A stretch of 64,000 bases of DNA, taken from Anaeromyxobacter terrae (GTDB taxonomy: Bacteria; Myxococcota; Myxococcia; Myxococcales; Anaeromyxobacteraceae). Positions 6,555 through 52,980 of the stretch are shown here, one piece after another; within the stretch, counting starts at the first letter, position 1; the number at the start of each line of letters is the position of its first letter. Below the pieces are notes generated by a model, which was not told the DNA's origin, made no database searches, and was given only the letters and a program-made list of their open reading frames with translations. The DNA is taken from the NCBI RefSeq assembly GCF_022690685.1, contig NZ_JALCYY010000007.1, forward strand, positions 1-64,000, in the 5' to 3' direction. The position numbers were made by a program, and so were the translations under genes.

Positions 6555-7975
<1,421 letters not shown>

Positions 7976-7979
<4 letters not shown>

Positions 7980-28698: not shown

Positions 28699-29598
28699 GT
28701 GACCCCGCCTCGTCGCGTTTTGCCCGGAACCACCTACCTCGTGACGCGCCGCTGCTCGGAGCGACGCTTCTTCCTGCGGCCGAGTCGGGTCGTGAACGAG
28801 ATCTTCCTCTACGTCCTCGCGGTCGCCGCGCGCCGCTACGGCGTCTGCGTCCACGCGGTCTGCGTCCTCTCGAACCACGCACATCTGGTGGTCACCGACT
28901 CCGAGGGCCGGCTCCCCGCGTTCATGCAGTACCTCGACTCCCTCGTCGCGCGGGCAGTGAACGCGTCCCTGGGGCGCTTCGAGGGCTTCTGGGCGACCGA
29001 CGGCAGCTACAGCGCGGTCGAGCCGCTCGATCCGGCCGACGTCGTCGCCAAGACCGCCTATGTGCTCGCGAACCCGGTCGCCGCCGGCCTCGTCCGCCGC
29101 GGCGCCGAGTGGCCGGGCCTCTGGACCGCCCCCGCCCAGCTGGCGGGCACGAAGCTCTCGGTGCGGCGCCCCAAGGTCTTCTTCGACCCGAAGAGCCATT
29201 TGCCGGACGTCGCGGAGCTCGAGCTGACCGTCCCTCCCGGTTTCGCATCGGCGGAGGACTTCCGCGCGCTCGTATCGGAGGCGCTCGACGGCCTCGAGGC
29301 AAAGCACCAGGAGGAGGCCGCGTCGGAAAAGCGCAGGTTTCTCGGAGCTGCGCGCGTCCTCGCCCAGAACCCGTTTTCGCGTCCGCAGCCCGGCGAGCCG
29401 CGCTTCGGGCTCAGGCCGCGGATCGCCGCCCGCGACAAGTGGAGGCGGATCGAGGGGATCTTCCGTTTGAAGACGTTCCTGCGGGAGTACCGACAGGCCT
29501 GGACCGCGCGGCAGTCGGGCGCGTCCGACGCGAAGTTCCCGGCGGGCACCTACCTCCTGCGCCTCATGCACGGCGTGCTGTGCGCCGGCGCCGCGTAG
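28699..29598 (+). CDS. REP-associated tyrosine transposase (RAYT, IS200-like Y1 family)
   Basis: From GTG 28699 the protein is 299 residues. Its N-terminal 150 residues match the Y1_Tnp fold: PGTTYLVTRRCSERRFF, then the metal-binding HUH-type SNHAHLVV (about 59-66), and YLDSLVARAVN with a candidate nucleophile Tyr nearby. The C-terminal half is a basic extension typical of RAYTs. RAYTs are single-copy, domesticated IS200-type nucleases that spread REP palindromes but do not move themselves. Short repeats with a common core flank this gene in opposite orientations, supporting the assignment. No ATG is available upstream of the conserved region. Confidence 0.82.
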   Translation: MTPPRRVLPGTTYLVTRRCSERRFFLRPSRVVNEIFLYVLAVAARRYGVCVHAVCVLSNHAHLVVTDSEGRLPAFMQYLDSLVARAVNASLGRFEGFWATDGSYSAVEPLDPADVVAKTAYVLANPVAAGLVRRGAEWPGLWTAPAQLAGTKLSVRRPKVFFDPKSHLPDVAELELTVPPGFASAEDFRALVSEALDGLEAKHQEEAASEKRRFLGAARVLAQNPFSRPQPGEPRFGLRPRIAARDKWRRIEGIFRLKTFLREYRQAWTARQSGASDAKFPAGTYLLRLMHGVLCAGAA

Positions 29599-45381: not shown

Positions 45382-47064
45382 TCAGATTCTGCCGTGATCG
45401 CCCGCGGCGCCGGCCCGCTCGCGGGTGTCCGCGAGAAACGCGTGAATCGTCGCGATGACCTTCGCGCCCTCTCCGACCGCCGCGGCGACGCGCTTCGTCG
45501 AGCCCGCGCGAACGTCGCCGATCGCGAAGACTCCATCGCGGCTCGTCTCCAGCTCCTGGCGGCCCTTGGAGACGTCCGCCCCTGTTCGCACGAACCCTCT
45601 GGGATCGAGCGCGACGCCTGACCCGGACAGCCACGACGTGTTCGGGTCCGCACCGATGAACAGGAACAGATGACGGATCGGTCGGCGCGTCTCCTCGCCC
45701 GACGGCGCCTGCCGCCAGCGCAGGGTCTCGAGGACGCCGCCCTGTCCTTCGATGGCGACGACCTGCGTCTGGAGCAACACCTCGATGTTCGCCGTGGCGG
45801 CGATACGGTCGACCAGGTAGCGCGACATGCTCGCCTGCAGGCTGCTCCCGCGCGCGAGGAGCGAGACCTTTGGGACCTGCGCCGCCAGGTAGACCGCCGC
45901 CTGTCCCGCGGAGTTGCCGGCACCGACCAGCGCTACCTCCTGTCCAGCGCAGAGCTTTCTCTCCAGCGGCGAAGCCCAGTAGTGGATGCCCGAGCCCTCG
46001 AACGTCGCGAGGTTCTCCAGATCCAGACGGCGATACCTGGCGCCGCTGGCGATGACCAGGGTGCGGGCCCTGACCCGTTCACCGTTCGAGAGACCCAGCT
46101 CGAACCCTCCGTCGACGTCGGCCGTGGGCTGCAGCCTGACGACCTCATCCGGTATCGCCATCTCGGCGCCAAACTTCTGCGCCTGGTTGAAGGCCCGGGC
46201 CATGAGGGCCATCCCGGAGACGCCGGTCGGAAACCCGAGATAGTTCTCGATCCGTGCCGACGCGCCAGCCTGGCCGCCGAACGCGCGACAATCGAGCACG
46301 AGGACGGACAGTCCTTCCGATGCTCCGTACACCGCCGCGGCGAGACCCGCCGGTCCGGCGCCGACGATGGCGACGTCGTAGACCTTCCTCGGATCGATCG
46401 GCTGGACCAGGCCGAGGCACCCGGCGAGCTCGACCTCGCTCGGATTGCGAAGGACTCGGCCGTTGGGGCAGAGCACGATCGGCAGCTCGGACGCCGCGAC
46501 GTGGAAGCGCTCGACCAGCGCCCTGGCGGACGGATCTTCATCGGGATCGAGCCGCTGATGCGGGTGCCCGTTGCGGGCGAGGAACCCCGCCAGGCGCAAC
46601 ACGTCGCCGCCCTCCGCAGGCCCGACGATCACCGGTCCGCTGAGACCGCTCTCGAGCAGGCCGACGCGCCGCAGGATGAGCGCACGCATGATGCGTTCCC
46701 CGACCTCCGCCTCGGCCACGAGCACGTCCGGTATTCTGCGCGAAGGGATGAGGAGCGCCTCGACCGGCCTCGTCGCACGTGCATCGACCAGCGAGGGACG
46801 TCCCGAGAGCTGGGCGAGCTCGCCCATGAACGAGCCCGGGCCGTGGAGGACGATGGCCTCGTCGTGCCCGAGCACGCTGTGCTGGGTGATCGCAACCTCG
46901 CCCGTCAGGATGACGAACATGCCCGGGCTGACGTCGCCGGTCGTCACGAGGCGCTCGCCCGCGCCGTAGGCTCGTGCGGAGCCGAAACGCCGCAGCCGGT
47001 CGATCTCGGCGGGATCGAGCCTCGGGAACATCTGGTCGTACCGGCTCTCGATGACCGATGCCAT
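45382..47064 (-). CDS. Fusion of cyclic-nucleotide-binding domain with thioredoxin-reductase-like flavoprotein
   Basis: This 560-residue protein starts at 47064 with GAGGAGG before the ATG. Residues about 1-125 form a cNMP-binding domain (PGSFMGELAQLSGRPSLVDA, with the phosphate-binding G-E-L). About 140-220 resemble a thioredoxin-like domain without cysteines. From about 235 comes a TrxR/AhpF-type flavoprotein: IVGAGPAGLAAAVYG for FAD, LVGAGNSAGQAAVYLA for NAD(P)H and DGVFAIGDVRAG near the C-terminus. The CxxC redox centre normally in SYCATC is here HYWASP, so disulfide reduction is unlikely. It may transfer hydride to another acceptor under cNMP control. Confidence 0.85.
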   Translation of the reverse strand: MASVIESRYDQMFPRLDPAEIDRLRRFGSARAYGAGERLVTTGDVSPGMFVILTGEVAITQHSVLGHDEAIVLHGPGSFMGELAQLSGRPSLVDARATRPVEALLIPSRRIPDVLVAEAEVGERIMRALILRRVGLLESGLSGPVIVGPAEGGDVLRLAGFLARNGHPHQRLDPDEDPSARALVERFHVAASELPIVLCPNGRVLRNPSEVELAGCLGLVQPIDPRKVYDVAIVGAGPAGLAAAVYGASEGLSVLVLDCRAFGGQAGASARIENYLGFPTGVSGMALMARAFNQAQKFGAEMAIPDEVVRLQPTADVDGGFELGLSNGERVRARTLVIASGARYRRLDLENLATFEGSGIHYWASPLERKLCAGQEVALVGAGNSAGQAAVYLAAQVPKVSLLARGSSLQASMSRYLVDRIAATANIEVLLQTQVVAIEGQGGVLETLRWRQAPSGEETRRPIRHLFLFIGADPNTSWLSGSGVALDPRGFVRTGADVSKGRQELETSRDGVFAIGDVRAGSTKRVAAAVGEGAKVIATIHAFLADTRERAGAAGDHGRI

Positions 47065-47432
47065 GGTGGGCCTCCTCAGGGGCGCGGCCACCCCGGGTAG
47101 CATTGACGTTGTCTGAATAGCGTCCCGCGCGCTGGCCTCTCGTGTAATGGCGAGCGGGCGAGCGGTGTTCGCCGGGTTGCGCGAGGGCGCAGCGCTCCAG
47201 CCGCGCGCGTGATCGTATTCGAGCTCTACGAGGCGCGTAGCCCTCGCCGGTGACGCCCGGAACCTCCACCGGGCGCGCTCGCAGCACGCATCGGCGGGGC
47301 ACCCCATCGATAGACCCTGGAATCCCGCGCCCCTCGGCCGCTCGGCTCGCCCCTCGAGCCCCCTCGCTGCGCGTTGATGTCGCTCCACAGAGGGCGCACG
47401 CTCTCTCGGGAGGTCGTCACCGGGAGGAGCAT
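47065..47432. other. Divergent intergenic region
   Basis: This 368-bp stretch between the flavoprotein and the lipoprotein genes contains no supported gene. Minus-strand GAGGAGG serves the flavoprotein; GGGAGGAG at 47422-47429 serves the lipoprotein. No clean promoter pair was found. Confidence 0.45.
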
Positions 47433-49874
47433 ATGACGCGCTGGATGGCGGTGGTTGCCTCTGCGCTCGTACTCGCGTGCTCTGGGGATGGCGACGGCGC
47501 AGGGCGATCGAACGGCCCACCGAACACGGTCTCGCTGACGGTCCACCGCTCCGGAGAATGCACCGGTGTCGTCAGCAGCGAGCCGGCAGGACTGTCGTGC
47601 ACCGACGCGAGCTGCAGCGGGACGTTCGCGGCCGGGACGACGCTGACGTTGATCGGGACGCCTGATCCCGGATGCCGATTCGACGGGTGGAGCGGCGCCT
47701 GTACTGGACTCGGGCCCTGCACGATCGTGCTCGACGCGTCCGCCACGGCGACGGCGACGTTCACCCTCCGGTTCGACCAGGACGGCTTCCTGGCGGACCT
47801 GCTGGACGCGCCGATTCCGGTCGAGGACACGATCCCGTCCGCCCCGCTGCGCAGCACCTGTGCGACCCGGACGGTGAACGGTCCCGGAAACGAGGCGTTC
47901 GGCGGCCCGGTTCCGTGCGTCAGCGGGTTCTGCCTCGAGAATGCACCGGGCTCCACGTGGCTATGGGCGATCGCGGGAGCTTCTCGATCGAGCCTCTGGG
48001 CCGTAGGCGAGGGCGCGCTGCTGCACTACGGCTCCCGCTGGGACACGGCGTGCGGGCCGCTCGACGGCTGGATACTTTACTCCGCGTACGCCAAAGACGA
48101 TCGCGACGTGTGGGTCGCCGGCCAGGGGACCATCGGCCACTTCGACGGAGCGTCCTGGAGCGCGACGCCCTCCGACCCCGGCTGGCGGGTGTTCGAGATC
48201 TTTGGCGACGCACGAGAGGCGTTTGCAGCCTACTCCGGGACCACGAGCGGCATCCTCCGCTGGAATGGCGCGGGATGGGCGCCGAGCTACGGCGGCCCGT
48301 CCGCGTCTGGCCTCTCGGTGTGGGGTGACGGAGCGGGCCGCGCCTGGGGAACGGACGGTGGACTTCTCGTCACGTGGGACGGGACGCGTTGGACCCATTC
48401 CGTCCGGCCTTTCAACCTGAACGACCTCTGGGCGCCCGCGGGTGGGGAGCCGTGGTTCGCCGGTTTCACCTTCCGCGATCCGGAGTGGTGGATTCACGAC
48501 GCTGCGGTCTGCACGCTCGAGCGCGGCGCTTACCTGTCGGTCCCCTTGCCGCCGGGATACCGGGAGGCGAACTGGGTGCGCGGAAGCGCATCCGACGACG
48601 TCTGGGTCAACGCCTGGAGCACCGAATCCGGGGCAGAAGGCGTCATGCTGCGATGGGATGGCGCTGCGTGGACGATCGTCGCGTCGCCGGGAGAATCGTA
48701 TCCGCCGCTGGTTCTAGCGCGAGACGAGGCGTGGCTCGTGCAAAACGCGCGCGACCCCGGCACGGTCCGGAGCGTTCCTCGTGTGATGCGCTTCGACGGG
48801 ACGCAGTGGACCACCTCGCTCGAGTTGGAGGCCCCCAGCTTGGCCGCAGCCGTGACGGCGTCTGGCGCGGTGTGGGCCGCCGCCGAGGACGGGCTCTGGC
48901 GTTTCGATGGTACTCGCTGGACGAGCATGCACGGCCGGCTCGGCTACTCAGCGCACCTCGCGAGCGACGGGTTGCGCGTCTGGGCAGCCGGCTACGATGG
49001 CGGTGGCTCCAGCACCGTCGCCGCGTGGGACGGCTCGCAGATGACGACGTTCCGTCTCTCGGGCGACGCTACCGCGCTCTACGCAACAGGTGGGCACGCG
49101 TGGCTCGCGACCGCGGGGTCGACGAGGGACGGTGCGAACGCCAGGGTGCACCACTGGGACGGCGTGTCCTGGACCGAGCTCGACACCGGAACGCCGATGT
49201 ACGTCCACGCCCTCTGGGCGTCCGCTCCCACCGACCTCTGGGCCGTCGGAGTCGTCTATCCGGCGACGTGGACCTCTCTGACGGGCATCATCGCGCACTG
49301 GGACGGCGCCGCGTGGGTGCGTCGCGAGATGCGGGATTACGAGCTCCGGTCGGTGTGGGGCTCCGGCGCTCGTGACGTCTGGGTGAGCGGCGACACGGCC
49401 TATTGCACGAAGTGCCCGCAAGTCGAACCGGATCCGCTGCTGCTGCGCTGGAATGGCAACAAGCTCGCGAAGGTCGCGAGCCTCGCTTTCGAGGAGCTCG
49501 CCGGCCGGAGCGCCAGCGAGGTCTGGGGTATCGCAGCGGAGCAGCGCTCAGGGAGCGCGGACCGGACTGCCGTGCTCCATCGCTTCGACGGGACGCGCTG
49601 GTCCGCGACGGCTCGCCTGGACCCGCCGTTCCGGCCGTATCGGCTCCATGCGGCGCCGGACGGTACGCTGTGGGGCGTGGATGGGGGGCCGCCTCCTGCG
49701 GCGCGCGCCGCCTCCTTCTCCTTAGTGCGCCCCGAGGCTCGCCGAGGGTCGCGACGCTCCGGGCCCCGGCGCGGGAGCTTCGGTGCAAGTTTGCGGCTGC
49801 ACGGCGAGCTCGCTCACGAGGGAAAGCCGCCCCGCAATCATCGGACGAACGCAGCGCCGCTTCGTCGGCGGTGA
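47433..49874 (+). CDS. Beta-propeller lipoprotein
   Basis: This 813-residue protein has a signal peptide with lipobox LVLACSG, then a Cys-rich repeat-type domain (about 35-115: GCRFDGWSGACTGLGPC) like those found before propellers in myxobacterial surface proteins. Next come at least nine repeats of the WDG..W / DVWV pattern (RWDGAAWTIV, WGSGARDVWVSG). These form one or two propellers. The last 60 residues are basic and low-complexity, so the natural C-terminus may end earlier or the end may be frame-shifted. It is probably surface-exposed. GGGAGGAG 3 nt from the ATG supports the start. Confidence 0.8.
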   Translation: MTRWMAVVASALVLACSGDGDGAGRSNGPPNTVSLTVHRSGECTGVVSSEPAGLSCTDASCSGTFAAGTTLTLIGTPDPGCRFDGWSGACTGLGPCTIVLDASATATATFTLRFDQDGFLADLLDAPIPVEDTIPSAPLRSTCATRTVNGPGNEAFGGPVPCVSGFCLENAPGSTWLWAIAGASRSSLWAVGEGALLHYGSRWDTACGPLDGWILYSAYAKDDRDVWVAGQGTIGHFDGASWSATPSDPGWRVFEIFGDAREAFAAYSGTTSGILRWNGAGWAPSYGGPSASGLSVWGDGAGRAWGTDGGLLVTWDGTRWTHSVRPFNLNDLWAPAGGEPWFAGFTFRDPEWWIHDAAVCTLERGAYLSVPLPPGYREANWVRGSASDDVWVNAWSTESGAEGVMLRWDGAAWTIVASPGESYPPLVLARDEAWLVQNARDPGTVRSVPRVMRFDGTQWTTSLELEAPSLAAAVTASGAVWAAAEDGLWRFDGTRWTSMHGRLGYSAHLASDGLRVWAAGYDGGGSSTVAAWDGSQMTTFRLSGDATALYATGGHAWLATAGSTRDGANARVHHWDGVSWTELDTGTPMYVHALWASAPTDLWAVGVVYPATWTSLTGIIAHWDGAAWVRREMRDYELRSVWGSGARDVWVSGDTAYCTKCPQVEPDPLLLRWNGNKLAKVASLAFEELAGRSASEVWGIAAEQRSGSADRTAVLHRFDGTRWSATARLDPPFRPYRLHAAPDGTLWGVDGGPPPAARAASFSLVRPEARRGSRRSGPRRGSFGASLRLHGELAHEGKPPRNHRTNAAPLRRR

Positions 49875-49908
49875 ACAGCGGAAGACCGCTGGACGCACCC
49901 GCTGAATG

Positions 49909-49924
49909 CTCGGCGTTTGCCGAG
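49909..49924. promoter_or_regulatory. 16-bp palindrome upstream of epoxide hydrolase 1
   Basis: CTCGGCGTTTGCCGAG is a 6-bp dyad about a 4-base centre. An almost identical site lies upstream of the second epoxide hydrolase. It is 194 bp before the ATG at 50111. Confidence 0.6.
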
Positions 49925-50110
49925 CCCTCGGCGTGAAGGCTCCGTCTCGAACGACTCGCCGCCGTCGCGGACGCGCGCCGCGATCGCGCGTCGCGCACGA
50001 GATCTCCGCGGAAGCTTCGCGGACCGTGGAGTGGGCACGAACGTTGCTCGGCGCGGCGAAGAGCGGCGGGTCGATCCGCGGAGGCTCGAAACAGCAAGAA
50101 GGAGGATGTC

Positions 50111-51496
50111 ATGTCGGCATCACCGTCGATGCCCGGCCGGCGCAGCTCCGGTGCGCGCCCGGTGACCGCGAGTGCCCTCGGCGCCCTGCTGCTCGCGGGC
50201 GTCGGCTGCACCCGAATGGTGTCGGCCGCGGACGGTGACGCCTCTGCCGCCCCCGGCGTCGGGAACCCCATGTCCACCGGACTCGAGATCCGCCCCTTCC
50301 ACGTCCACGTCCCGGACGCGGCCCTCGTAGATCTGCGCAGACGCATCGCCGCCACGCGGTGGCCGGATCGGGAGACGGTCACGGATCCGTCGCAGGGGGC
50401 TCAGCTCGCCAAGCTGCAGGGGCTCGTCCAGTACTGGGGCAGCGGATACGACTGGCGGAAGGCGGAAGCGAAGCTGAATGCGTTGCCGCAATTCACGACG
50501 AACATCGACGGGATCGACGTCCACTTCATCCACGTCCGTTCCCGTCACAAGAACGCGCTTCCGGTGATCATCACGCACGGTTGGCCGGGCTCCGTGCTCG
50601 AGCTCATCAAGGTCATTGGCCCGCTCACGGATCCCACCGCGCACGGAGGCCGCGCCGAGGACGCGTTCGACGTCGTGATCCCGTCGGTGCCTGGCTACGG
50701 CTTCTCCGGCAAGCCGACGGGCACCGGCTGGGACCCCGACCGCATCGCGCGGGCCTGGGCGGAGCTGATGAAGCGCCTCGGATACAACCGCTACGTCGCC
50801 CAGGGTGGCGACTGGGGTGCTCCCATCTCCAGCGCGATGGCGCGCCAGGCGCCGGCAGGATTGCTTGGCATCCACCTCAACCTGGCGGCGACGGTGCCGC
50901 CCGAGGTGGAGGCCGCGCTGGCCAGCGGGGGGGCCGCGCCGGCGGGACTCTCCGAGAACGAGCGCGCGGTGTTCGACGCGCTCGCCGCATACCGCAAGGC
51001 GGGGAGCTCGGCCTACTTCGTGATGATGACCGCGCGGCCGCAGGCAGTCGGGTACGGGCTGACGGACTCTCCGGCCGGGCTCGCGGCATGGATCCTCGTG
51101 CATCCGGGGTTCGCGCAGTGGACGTACGGCGACGCTCCCGGGAAGTCCCCGACGAAGGACGACGTGCTGGACGACATCACGCTGTACTGGCTGACGAACA
51201 GCGCGAGCTCGTCGGCGCGACTTTACTGGGAGAACCGGGGGCGTAGCGTGACGGGCGCCGCTGCGCAGAAGACCGCCGAGATCTCACTCCCCGTGGCCAT
51301 CACGGTCTTTCCGGAGGACGTCTATCGGCCCCCGGAGACCTGGGCCCGGCGCGCCTATCGCAACCTGATCTACTTCCACGAGGTCGACAGGGGGGGACAC
51401 TTCGCGGCGTGGGAGCAGCCAGAGCTCTTCGCAGCAGAGCTCCGCGCGGCGTTCAGCCCACTGCGCGCCTCCGCCACCAACGTCGCCCGTCCGTGA
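50111..51496 (+). CDS. Epoxide hydrolase, exported lipoprotein form
   Basis: This 461-residue protein starts after AAGGAGG (50099-50105). An N-terminal signal ends in the lipobox LAGVGC, so it is probably anchored in the membrane. Then comes the EHN domain (FHVHVPDAALVDLRRRI) and an alpha/beta-hydrolase core with the oxyanion HGWPGS, nucleophile Asp234 in QGGDWGA and catalytic His430 in RGGHFAAWEQPE. A lid region carries the ring-opening Tyr candidates. It should open epoxides to diols outside the cytoplasm. It is a close paralogue of the downstream gene. Confidence 0.9.
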   Translation: MSASPSMPGRRSSGARPVTASALGALLLAGVGCTRMVSAADGDASAAPGVGNPMSTGLEIRPFHVHVPDAALVDLRRRIAATRWPDRETVTDPSQGAQLAKLQGLVQYWGSGYDWRKAEAKLNALPQFTTNIDGIDVHFIHVRSRHKNALPVIITHGWPGSVLELIKVIGPLTDPTAHGGRAEDAFDVVIPSVPGYGFSGKPTGTGWDPDRIARAWAELMKRLGYNRYVAQGGDWGAPISSAMARQAPAGLLGIHLNLAATVPPEVEAALASGGAAPAGLSENERAVFDALAAYRKAGSSAYFVMMTARPQAVGYGLTDSPAGLAAWILVHPGFAQWTYGDAPGKSPTKDDVLDDITLYWLTNSASSSARLYWENRGRSVTGAAAQKTAEISLPVAITVFPEDVYRPPETWARRAYRNLIYFHEVDRGGHFAAWEQPELFAAELRAAFSPLRASATNVARP

Positions 51497-51540
51497 GCCC
51501 CACGAGCGCGCAGGCTCGCGACCCTGGCACTCGCCGAATG

Positions 51541-51556
51541 CTCGGCATTTGCCGAG
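51541..51556. promoter_or_regulatory. 16-bp palindrome upstream of epoxide hydrolase 2
   Basis: CTCGGCATTTGCCGAG differs in one central base from the site at 49909. The surrounding sequence, including GAATG before and CTCGGCGTG after, is also shared. It lies 153 bp before the ATG at 51709. Confidence 0.6.
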
Positions 51557-51708
51557 TTCTCGGCGTGGGACCCGGTCGCTCGCGCGACCCGGGACCCGAC
51601 GAGCGGCGCGCCACGAACGCACGTGACGAACGAAACCTTCGCGGATCATCGCGGTACGGCGGAGGGCACGAATGTTGCTCCACGTTTGCGAGAGAAAGGT
51701 CTGAAGCC

Positions 51709-52980
51709 ATGACTGAAGCCACACCACAGACGGGCAGTGACAGACCGCGTCCGGGCAGTGAGGAGACCGCCGATGTTCGTCCATTTCGCGTGAATGTTCC
51801 GGAGGCGGAACTCACGGAGCTGCGCAGGCGCGTCAAGGCGACGAGGTGGCCTCAACGGGAGCCGGTCACGGATCAATCCCAGGGCGTGCAGCTCGCGACG
51901 ATCCAGGAACTCGCGCGCTACTGGGCGACGGACTACGACTGGCGCAAGTGCGAGGCGAAGTTGAACGCCCTTCCGCAGTTCATGACCGAGATCGATGGGC
52001 TCGACATTCACTTCATTCACGTTCGGTCGAAGCATGACGATGCGCTGCCGCTCATCGTCACACATGGATGGCCCGGCTCGGTCATCGAGCAGCTGAAGAT
52101 CGTCGATCCACTCACGAATCCGACGGCGCACGGCGCGAATCCATCGGACGCCTTCCACCTGGTGATCCCGTCCTTGCCGGGCTACGGCTTCTCGGGCAAG
52201 CCGGCCACGACCGGCTGGAGCCCCGACCGCATCGCACGCGCCTGGGTGGAGCTGATGAAGCGCCTTGGCTACACGCGCTTCGCCGCGCAAGGCGGCGATT
52301 GGGGCGCGATGGTCACGGATGTCATGGGCACGCAGGCGCCTCCGGAGTTGCTCGGCATTCACGTCAACTGGCCTTTCACGGTTCCACCGGACATCGACAA
52401 GGCGGTCCAGACTGGAAACCCGCTGCCATCCGATCTCTCAGCCGATGAACGACGCGCGTGCGAGCAGCTGGACTTCTTCTACAAGCACGGGGTGGGATAC
52501 GCCCTCGAGATGGCGAGCCGCCCGCAGACCCTCTACGGAATCGAGGATTCGCCCGTTGGCCTCGCCGCCTGGCTCCTCGACCACGACGCGCGCAGTTACG
52601 CGCTGATCGCACGCGTCTTCGGCGGTCAGACCGAGGGCCTCACGCGAGACGACATCGTCGACAACATCACGCTCTACTGGCTGACTCGTACGGCGGTCTC
52701 TTCGGGGCGCATCTATTGGGAGAACAAGTTCGCCTTCTTTGCACCGAAACACGTCGCCATCCCGGTCGCGGTGAGCGCCTTTCCTGACGAGGTATTGCAG
52801 ACGCCACGGAGCTGGGCAGAGCGAGCGTATCCCAAGCTCATTTATTACAACAAGCTCGACAAAGGCGGGCATTTTGCGGCGTGGGAACAGCCGCAACTCT
52901 TTTCAGGGGAGGTTCGCGCGGGCTTCAGACCACTGCGGGGTGCGCAGGGCCAGCAGGAATCGCAGCGCACCGTGCACTGA
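51709..52980 (+). CDS. Epoxide hydrolase, cytosolic form
   Basis: This 423-residue paralogue of the preceding gene has no signal peptide. The EHN domain begins RPFRVNVPEAELTELRRRV. The core has HGWPGSV, nucleophile Asp197 in QGGDWGA and His388 in GGHFAAWEQPQ. The two proteins share long identical runs, but this one is the cytoplasmic member. Upstream DNA also resembles that of the first gene (shared palindrome and GGGCACGAA block), so the duplication included the control region. Confidence 0.9.
   Translation: MTEATPQTGSDRPRPGSEETADVRPFRVNVPEAELTELRRRVKATRWPQREPVTDQSQGVQLATIQELARYWATDYDWRKCEAKLNALPQFMTEIDGLDIHFIHVRSKHDDALPLIVTHGWPGSVIEQLKIVDPLTNPTAHGANPSDAFHLVIPSLPGYGFSGKPATTGWSPDRIARAWVELMKRLGYTRFAAQGGDWGAMVTDVMGTQAPPELLGIHVNWPFTVPPDIDKAVQTGNPLPSDLSADERRACEQLDFFYKHGVGYALEMASRPQTLYGIEDSPVGLAAWLLDHDARSYALIARVFGGQTEGLTRDDIVDNITLYWLTRTAVSSGRIYWENKFAFFAPKHVAIPVAVSAFPDEVLQTPRSWAERAYPKLIYYNKLDKGGHFAAWEQPQLFSGEVRAGFRPLRGAQGQQESQRTVH

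Follow-up and report, generated by a model that had tools for sequence, protein, structure and literature searches.

A putative sigma-54 control module shared by two adjacent epoxide hydrolase genes and other predicted detoxification genes of Anaeromyxobacter

Introduction

The best known epoxide-responsive control of epoxide hydrolases is the CifR circuit of Pseudomonas, in which a TetR repressor governs cif, and similar circuits occur in Acinetobacter and Burkholderia (PMC8244358). In other bacteria, a MEDS domain is found beside epoxide-metabolism genes, as in EtnR1 and EtnR2 of Mycobacterium and a MEDS-HTH regulator of Methylohalobius crimeensis; the domain, which regulators of epoxide metabolism contain, is regarded as a sensor of simple hydrocarbon derivatives (PMC11507031). 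Among sigma-54 systems, the one-component EBP regulons of Desulfovibrio vulgaris have inverted-repeat or multi-half-site motifs upstream (one with three half-sites, gel-shift tested), a promoter consensus tGGcacg/tTGCt, and EBP genes co-localised with their target operons (PMC4641369). GabR of Bacillus thuringiensis is described as a PAS-AAA+-HTH sigma-54 activator with a metabolic target (PMC4279683). In the open-access literature we found no paper tying an epoxide hydrolase to sigma-54 control, the one match concerning ECF sigma factors.

Here we describe the control regions of two adjacent epoxide hydrolase genes, EH1 and EH2, in a 64,000-nt stretch of Anaeromyxobacter terrae DNA (the window). 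They resemble the D. vulgaris regulons in the -24/-12 consensus, the multi-half-site upstream motif and the presence of an EBP gene near targets (PMC4641369), but differ in that the predicted targets are epoxide hydrolases and other detoxification enzymes, that there are four GCCGA half-sites, and that some of the predicted members lie apart from the EBP gene. With CifR-cif and its Acinetobacter and Burkholderia counterparts the system would share inducible control of bacterial epoxide hydrolases; the predicted regulator is, however, a sigma-54 activator instead of a TetR repressor, and the hydrolases belong to the EHN (microsomal-EH-like) family and not to the Cif-type alpha/beta epoxide hydrolases. 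As for EtnR1/EtnR2 and the M. crimeensis regulator, a MEDS domain is encoded beside epoxide-metabolism genes, but as a separate protein whose gene lies just ahead of that of the sigma-54 activator, and in contrast to EtnR-type systems no coenzyme-M pathway genes were seen in the stretches read. Finally, the candidate activator has the PAS-AAA+-HTH architecture of GabR and would differ from it in ligand and targets (PMC4279683).

Results and Discussion

Two epoxide hydrolases with different predicted locations

In what follows, G000 is the genome of the window, G006 and G007 are sister genomes, and the comparison set comprises 147 genomes of the class. What is said of whole genomes comes from pattern searches, which miss weaker members, and the start codons of several regulon genes come from a simple GC-frame caller.

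EH1 and EH2 (Table 1) share about 55-57% identity, contain the domains PF06441 (EHN) and PF00561 (alpha/beta-hydrolase core), and have solved relatives 5f4z, 4i19, 4qla (a juvenile-hormone epoxide hydrolase) and 6ix4 (a microsomal one). The nucleophile Asp (GGDWG) and the catalytic His (GGHFAA) are invariant in the two proteins and align with those of 5f4z. Both are predicted EHN-type epoxide hydrolases, of the microsomal/juvenile-hormone type.

Export signals were read by eye and with a lipobox pattern, not with a trained signal-peptide predictor. EH1 starts with a hydrophobic stretch and a lipobox of PROSITE-type pattern at residues 23-33, a weak box with Gly at position -3, whereas EH2, read in the same way, has no recognisable signal. 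This agrees with the first-pass annotation of the window, which had taken one of the two for a lipoprotein and the other for a cytosolic protein, and control of epoxide detoxification on both sides of the membrane is plausible. The EH1 orthologue of G006 also carries a lipobox (LLLLGIGC), EH1 relatives in G035 and G055 are lipoprotein-like, and Sec-like and Tat-like signals were read in the G007 counterpart and in an alphaproteobacterial relative, respectively, indicating that the EH1 clade is commonly exported. EH3, encoded on contig C99 of G000, and its G006 counterpart have Sec-like signals at the N-terminus. As a side observation, exported microsomal-type epoxide hydrolases may be widespread, judged by the Tat-like or lipoprotein signals of EH1 relatives (L181 3901-5175, L275/L276).

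Table 1. Predicted features of the EH1-EH2 region (positions in the window)
Feature	Position	Strand	Description
UAS1	49901..49932	+	GCTGA-ATGC-TCGGC-GTTT-GCCGA-GCCC-TCGGC, four half-sites, 1 mismatch to array consensus
EH1 sigma-54 -24/-12 promoter	50033..50048	+	GGGCACGAACGTTGCT, GG-N10-GC; predicted transcription start ~50059
EH1 epoxide hydrolase	50111..51496	+	EHN + Abhydrolase_1, 461 aa
EH1 predicted lipoprotein signal	50111..50209	+	up to lipobox Cys33, LGALLLAGVGC
UAS2	51533..51564	+	GCCGA-ATGC-TCGGC-ATTT-GCCGA-GTTC-TCGGC, perfect four-half-site array
EH2 sigma-54 -24/-12 promoter	51664..51679	+	GGGCACGAATGTTGCT; predicted transcription start ~51690
EH2 epoxide hydrolase	51709..52980	+	EHN + Abhydrolase_1, 423 aa; no export signal, predicted cytosolic

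A four-half-site array at a fixed distance from predicted sigma-54 promoters

The palindrome CTCGGC-N4-GCCGAG, already noticed ahead of both genes in the first pass, matches exactly at 49909-49924 and 51541-51556, within a 41-nt repeat that is 88% identical between the two copies (49895-49935 and 51527-51567). It forms the core of a 32-bp array, GCCGA-N4-TCGGC-N4-GCCGA-N4-TCGGC: two outer half-sites, missed previously, flank the palindrome, giving four half-sites separated by 4-bp spacers with a 9-bp period. A search of the 5.65-Mb genome for CTCGGCNTTTGCCGAG returned two exact matches, both ahead of EH1/EH2, so the palindrome is not spread widely without regulatory logic. With two mismatches allowed, the bare 16-mer is no commoner than chance (33 matches in the window for 29.6 expected), indicating that what carries the signal is an exact palindrome set within the longer element. 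The sole one-mismatch match, C24:83484, adjoins a bEBP gene and was considered as the site of an autoregulated regulator; it was rejected, as it sits within a serine-hydrolase coding sequence. Palindrome matches in other genera come without the extended array and without such a promoter, and were attributed to chance.

Between each array and its gene lie GGGCACGAA (50033 and 51664) and GTTGCTC (50043 and 51674), which had been recorded as separate shared blocks. Together they make up one 17-nt block with 94% identity between copies, placed at a distance from the palindrome that is equal within 1 bp, and they correspond to the two halves of a sigma-54 -24/-12 promoter (GG-N10-GC). In both genes GGGCACGAAYGTTGCT matches the consensus TGGCACG-N4-TTGCW at 11 of the 12 fixed positions, with GG and GC ten bases apart. 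The predicted transcription starts fall about 52 nt (EH1) and 19 nt (EH2) ahead of the start codons, and the array is upstream, its centre 116.5-117.5 bp from the -24 GG. By its sequence, this geometry of array and promoter is that of a predicted enhancer (UAS) for an NtrC-type activator (bEBP). The genome encodes RpoN (PF04552 at C121:39196, E 8e-65).

Could the inverted repeats instead act as RNA hairpins (terminators or attenuators), or be dispersed REP-like repeats with no regulatory meaning? They are GC-rich, and UAS2 begins about 37 nt past the EH1 stop codon, but the region showed no terminator-like site, the few exact copies in the genome are not scattered, the half-sites are periodic and the distance to the promoter is nearly fixed, so that we consider this explanation highly improbable. 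Alternatively, a TetR-type repressor that leaves its operator on binding an epoxide could act at the palindrome, a palindromic site being the expected target of such a protein and CifR its best known precedent (PMC8244358). However, the sites are placed some 117 bp ahead of a sigma-54 promoter instead of overlapping a sigma-70 promoter, no sigma-70-like promoter was found in the region, and inspection by eye of the listed ORFs near EH1 and EH2 revealed no TetR-like ORF, so that neither mark of the CifR/TetR class, an adjacent TetR gene and an operator over the promoter, was recognised here. Since the site moreover co-occurs with a subfamily of sigma-54 activators (see below), a TetR operator seems improbable, and an activator acting from an enhancer is the reading that we retain.

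Further copies of the module in this genome and its relatives

Two further exact extended elements were found in G000, both on contig C61. One precedes a glyoxalase - nitrilase/DUF302 - amidase operon and has GGGCATGCCACTTGCT at +124 from the 16-bp palindrome; GG-N10-GC promoters thus stand at +123/+124 at EH1, EH2 and this operon. The other (C61:27110) precedes an alpha/beta-hydrolase - zinc-type oxidoreductase pair, and a clear GG-N10-GC promoter is absent at this UAS as well as at that of the alpha/beta-hydrolase in G006 (G006:4626316). On C99, a redoxin/SDR/EH3 cluster follows a three-mismatch copy of the extended element, whose promoter stands at +95, and EH3 has its own sigma-54-like promoter and a degenerate array. 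In G006, exact elements precede the EH1 operon, the glyoxalase operon and the alpha/beta-hydrolase, and variant elements precede the EH3 orthologue and an SDR; G007 has two degenerate array copies, with promoters. A shared UAS was thus found roughly 80-150 bp upstream of several sigma-54 promoters, as in NtrC-type bEBP regulons.

The extended UAS occurs exactly four times in G000 and three times in G006, and not at all in the reversed control. At one mismatch or less, the array was detected in only 2 of the 147 genomes of the class, G000 and G006, and was absent from the other 145. In the 400 bp upstream of 80 homologous epoxide hydrolase loci of other bacteria, a sigma-54-like site was present once and the array never. 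This arrangement with epoxide hydrolases looks particular to the genus.

The strict promoter pattern GGGCAYN5TTGCT was found at 13 places in G000 among the matches listed (none in the reversed control), which amount to 12 distinct ones because contigs C61 and C99 overlap. As the window sites had guided the choice of this pattern, independent tests are the other sites only: the strict promoter is present at two of the three further UAS copies in G000, against an expectation per site of about 6e-5, the chance of finding it within the right 60 bp of a given UAS.

The overlap of the two contigs (C61:1-15000 and C99:129911-144910) extends over at least 15 kb at 100% identity, indicating that this stretch is double-counted in the assembly and that the contigs are probably neighbours. 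The activator gene described below, the redoxin/EH3 cluster and the C61 operons would then belong to one neighbourhood, with EH1 and EH2 elsewhere. A supposed further gene, 'EH4' (C61:1-984), is for the same reason EH3 itself and was counted once. Separately, we observed that a nitrilase-type CN_hydrolase is fused in frame to DUF302 in G000 (L068:9073-10575, on C61), the two being separate ORFs in G006.

A candidate activator encoded next to a MEDS-domain protein

The candidate activator is encoded at about 123.9-125.8 kb of C99 (C99:124840) and contains a PAS domain, a sigma-54 AAA+ domain with Walker motif and GAFTGA loop, and a Fis-type HTH (HTH_8). Its subfamily, represented by the G007 protein (66-100% identity), occurs in 3 of the 147 genomes, once in G000, four times in G006 and once in G007; for the remaining six genomes of the genus, no bEBP among the matches listed exceeds 56-57% identity. 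In all three genomes an activator gene is linked to UAS-promoter pairs. In G006, one activator gene and the EH1 operon are transcribed away from each other, the UAS standing between them (activator start 6611, UAS 6280-6305 of L115), and another lies directly ahead of the EH3 orthologue. In G007 and G000 the gene is close to other UAS-promoter pairs, and in G000 EH1 and EH2 are on a different contig from the activator gene. Sequence alone shows the module with its spacing, this linkage, and the restriction of the module to genomes that encode the activator; linked inheritance of an island within one genus could account for part of the co-occurrence.

The first-pass annotation had proposed one regulator for both genes, and thought of a repressor. 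With a shared UAS and promoter and a co-occurring activator subfamily, a single regulator is likely, but the sigma-54 promoter and enhancer point to an activator. Another bEBP gene, C61:33169, lies near two UAS copies; its product was not among the subfamily matches, and C99:124840 was preferred. The window itself encodes a response-regulator-type bEBP (6555-7979, with an NtrC-like receiver as judged by eye), which falls outside the array-tied subfamily.

In G000, a MEDS-domain gene (PF14417, E 5e-46) directly precedes the activator gene, and its product is 80% identical to one encoded ahead of a G006 activator. Pairs of a free-standing MEDS gene and a PAS-bEBP gene are located at L118:6185-8787 (C99 of G000) and L115:14763-17362 (G006); near the G007 activator, no MEDS gene was found in the stretches searched. 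This proximity, together with the literature on MEDS domains, suggests that the inducer is plausibly an epoxide or a related small molecule. A separate survey of such MEDS and sigma-54 activator pairs may be worthwhile.

Separate histories of the hydrolases and their control regions

The two genes had been regarded as tandem duplicates whose control region was copied along with the gene. They are adjacent and about 55% identical, and their control regions are homologous, spacer included: the UAS-promoter spacers of EH2 and EH1 align with a score of 85.5, for a mean of 56.7 (s.d. 5.2) in shuffles, none of 1000 being as good. In such a case the shared palindrome would reflect inheritance and have little bearing on shared control. 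However, a tree of 63 proteins places EH1 beside its counterparts from G006 and G007 in a large, mostly proteobacterial clade (support 100/98), and EH2 in a separate clade (support 100/100) together with its orthologue from G006, EH3 (72-75% identical to EH2) and two more relatives. Each clade holds members from other families of the order, indicating that EH1 and EH2 are neither recent tandem duplicates nor each other's nearest relatives. Furthermore, the same elements with the same spacing also precede unrelated genes, and the control regions are far more diverged outside the elements than within them. Joint duplication of gene and control region is therefore quite improbable, although the homology of the control regions stands.

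The EH2 spacer also aligns with the G006 EH1 spacer, and not with the C99 spacer. The EH2 orthologue of G006 has no UAS directly upstream; it follows EH1 and a redoxin gene that are encoded on its own strand. The simplest reading of these sequences is that EH2 acquired a copy of the EH1 control region, which was apparently duplicated or captured independently of the gene. Derivation from the UAS of the alpha/beta-hydrolase was also considered, and the spacer test favours the EH1 control region.

A proposed sigma-54 regulon

Taken together, the data suggest, with a probability that we estimate at about 0.8, that the palindrome belongs to a sigma-54 control module served by the C99 PAS-AAA+-Fis-HTH activator and directed at detoxification genes. 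Since the same switch is found on other detoxification genes of this genome and of two sister species, both hydrolases seem to be members of a single inducible stress regulon that had not been recognised before. Dimers of the NtrC-type activator, likely the protein encoded right after the MEDS-domain protein, would bind the four-half-site enhancer and, by looping, reach RNA polymerase-sigma-54 at the -24/-12 promoter, whose -24 element lies about 117 bp beyond the UAS centre, and would open this promoter by ATP hydrolysis. Two of the predicted targets are in the window, EH1 (predicted lipoprotein) and EH2 (predicted cytosolic). The others are close to the activator gene: the redoxin-SDR-EH3 cluster, the glyoxalase-nitrilase-amidase operon and the alpha/beta-hydrolase-oxidoreductase operon. 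We infer that the C99 protein binds the array, that the promoters depend on sigma-54 and that a small reactive molecule, such as an epoxide or a hydrocarbon derivative, acts as the inducer.

More tentatively, a separate MEDS hydrocarbon/epoxide sensor could activate the PAS-type sigma-54 activator, in a regulon that would unite envelope epoxide hydrolases (the lipoprotein EH1 and the Sec-exported EH3), the cytosolic EH2 and other electrophile-detoxifying enzymes, and that would have spread by promoter capture; this fuller scheme is possible, and we hold it with some doubt. If true, an epoxide response would be run by sigma-54 and not by a TetR repressor, and would have spread by promoter capture independently of gene duplication. 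EH2 itself is an apparent example of a control region reaching a gene without duplication of that gene. The defined predicted site, the named activator and the linked MEDS gene make up a circuit that can be tested directly in Anaeromyxobacter, probably soil-dwelling myxobacteria, and a sigma-54 epoxide circuit is a possible biosensor part.

Two minor observations concern the rest of the window. Upstream of EH1, one ORF on the minus strand (45382-47520) seems to combine cyclic-nucleotide-binding and thioredoxin-reductase-like domains, as judged by eye, and a 49-bp stretch at 29005-29053 is 94% identical to C61:2277-2325.
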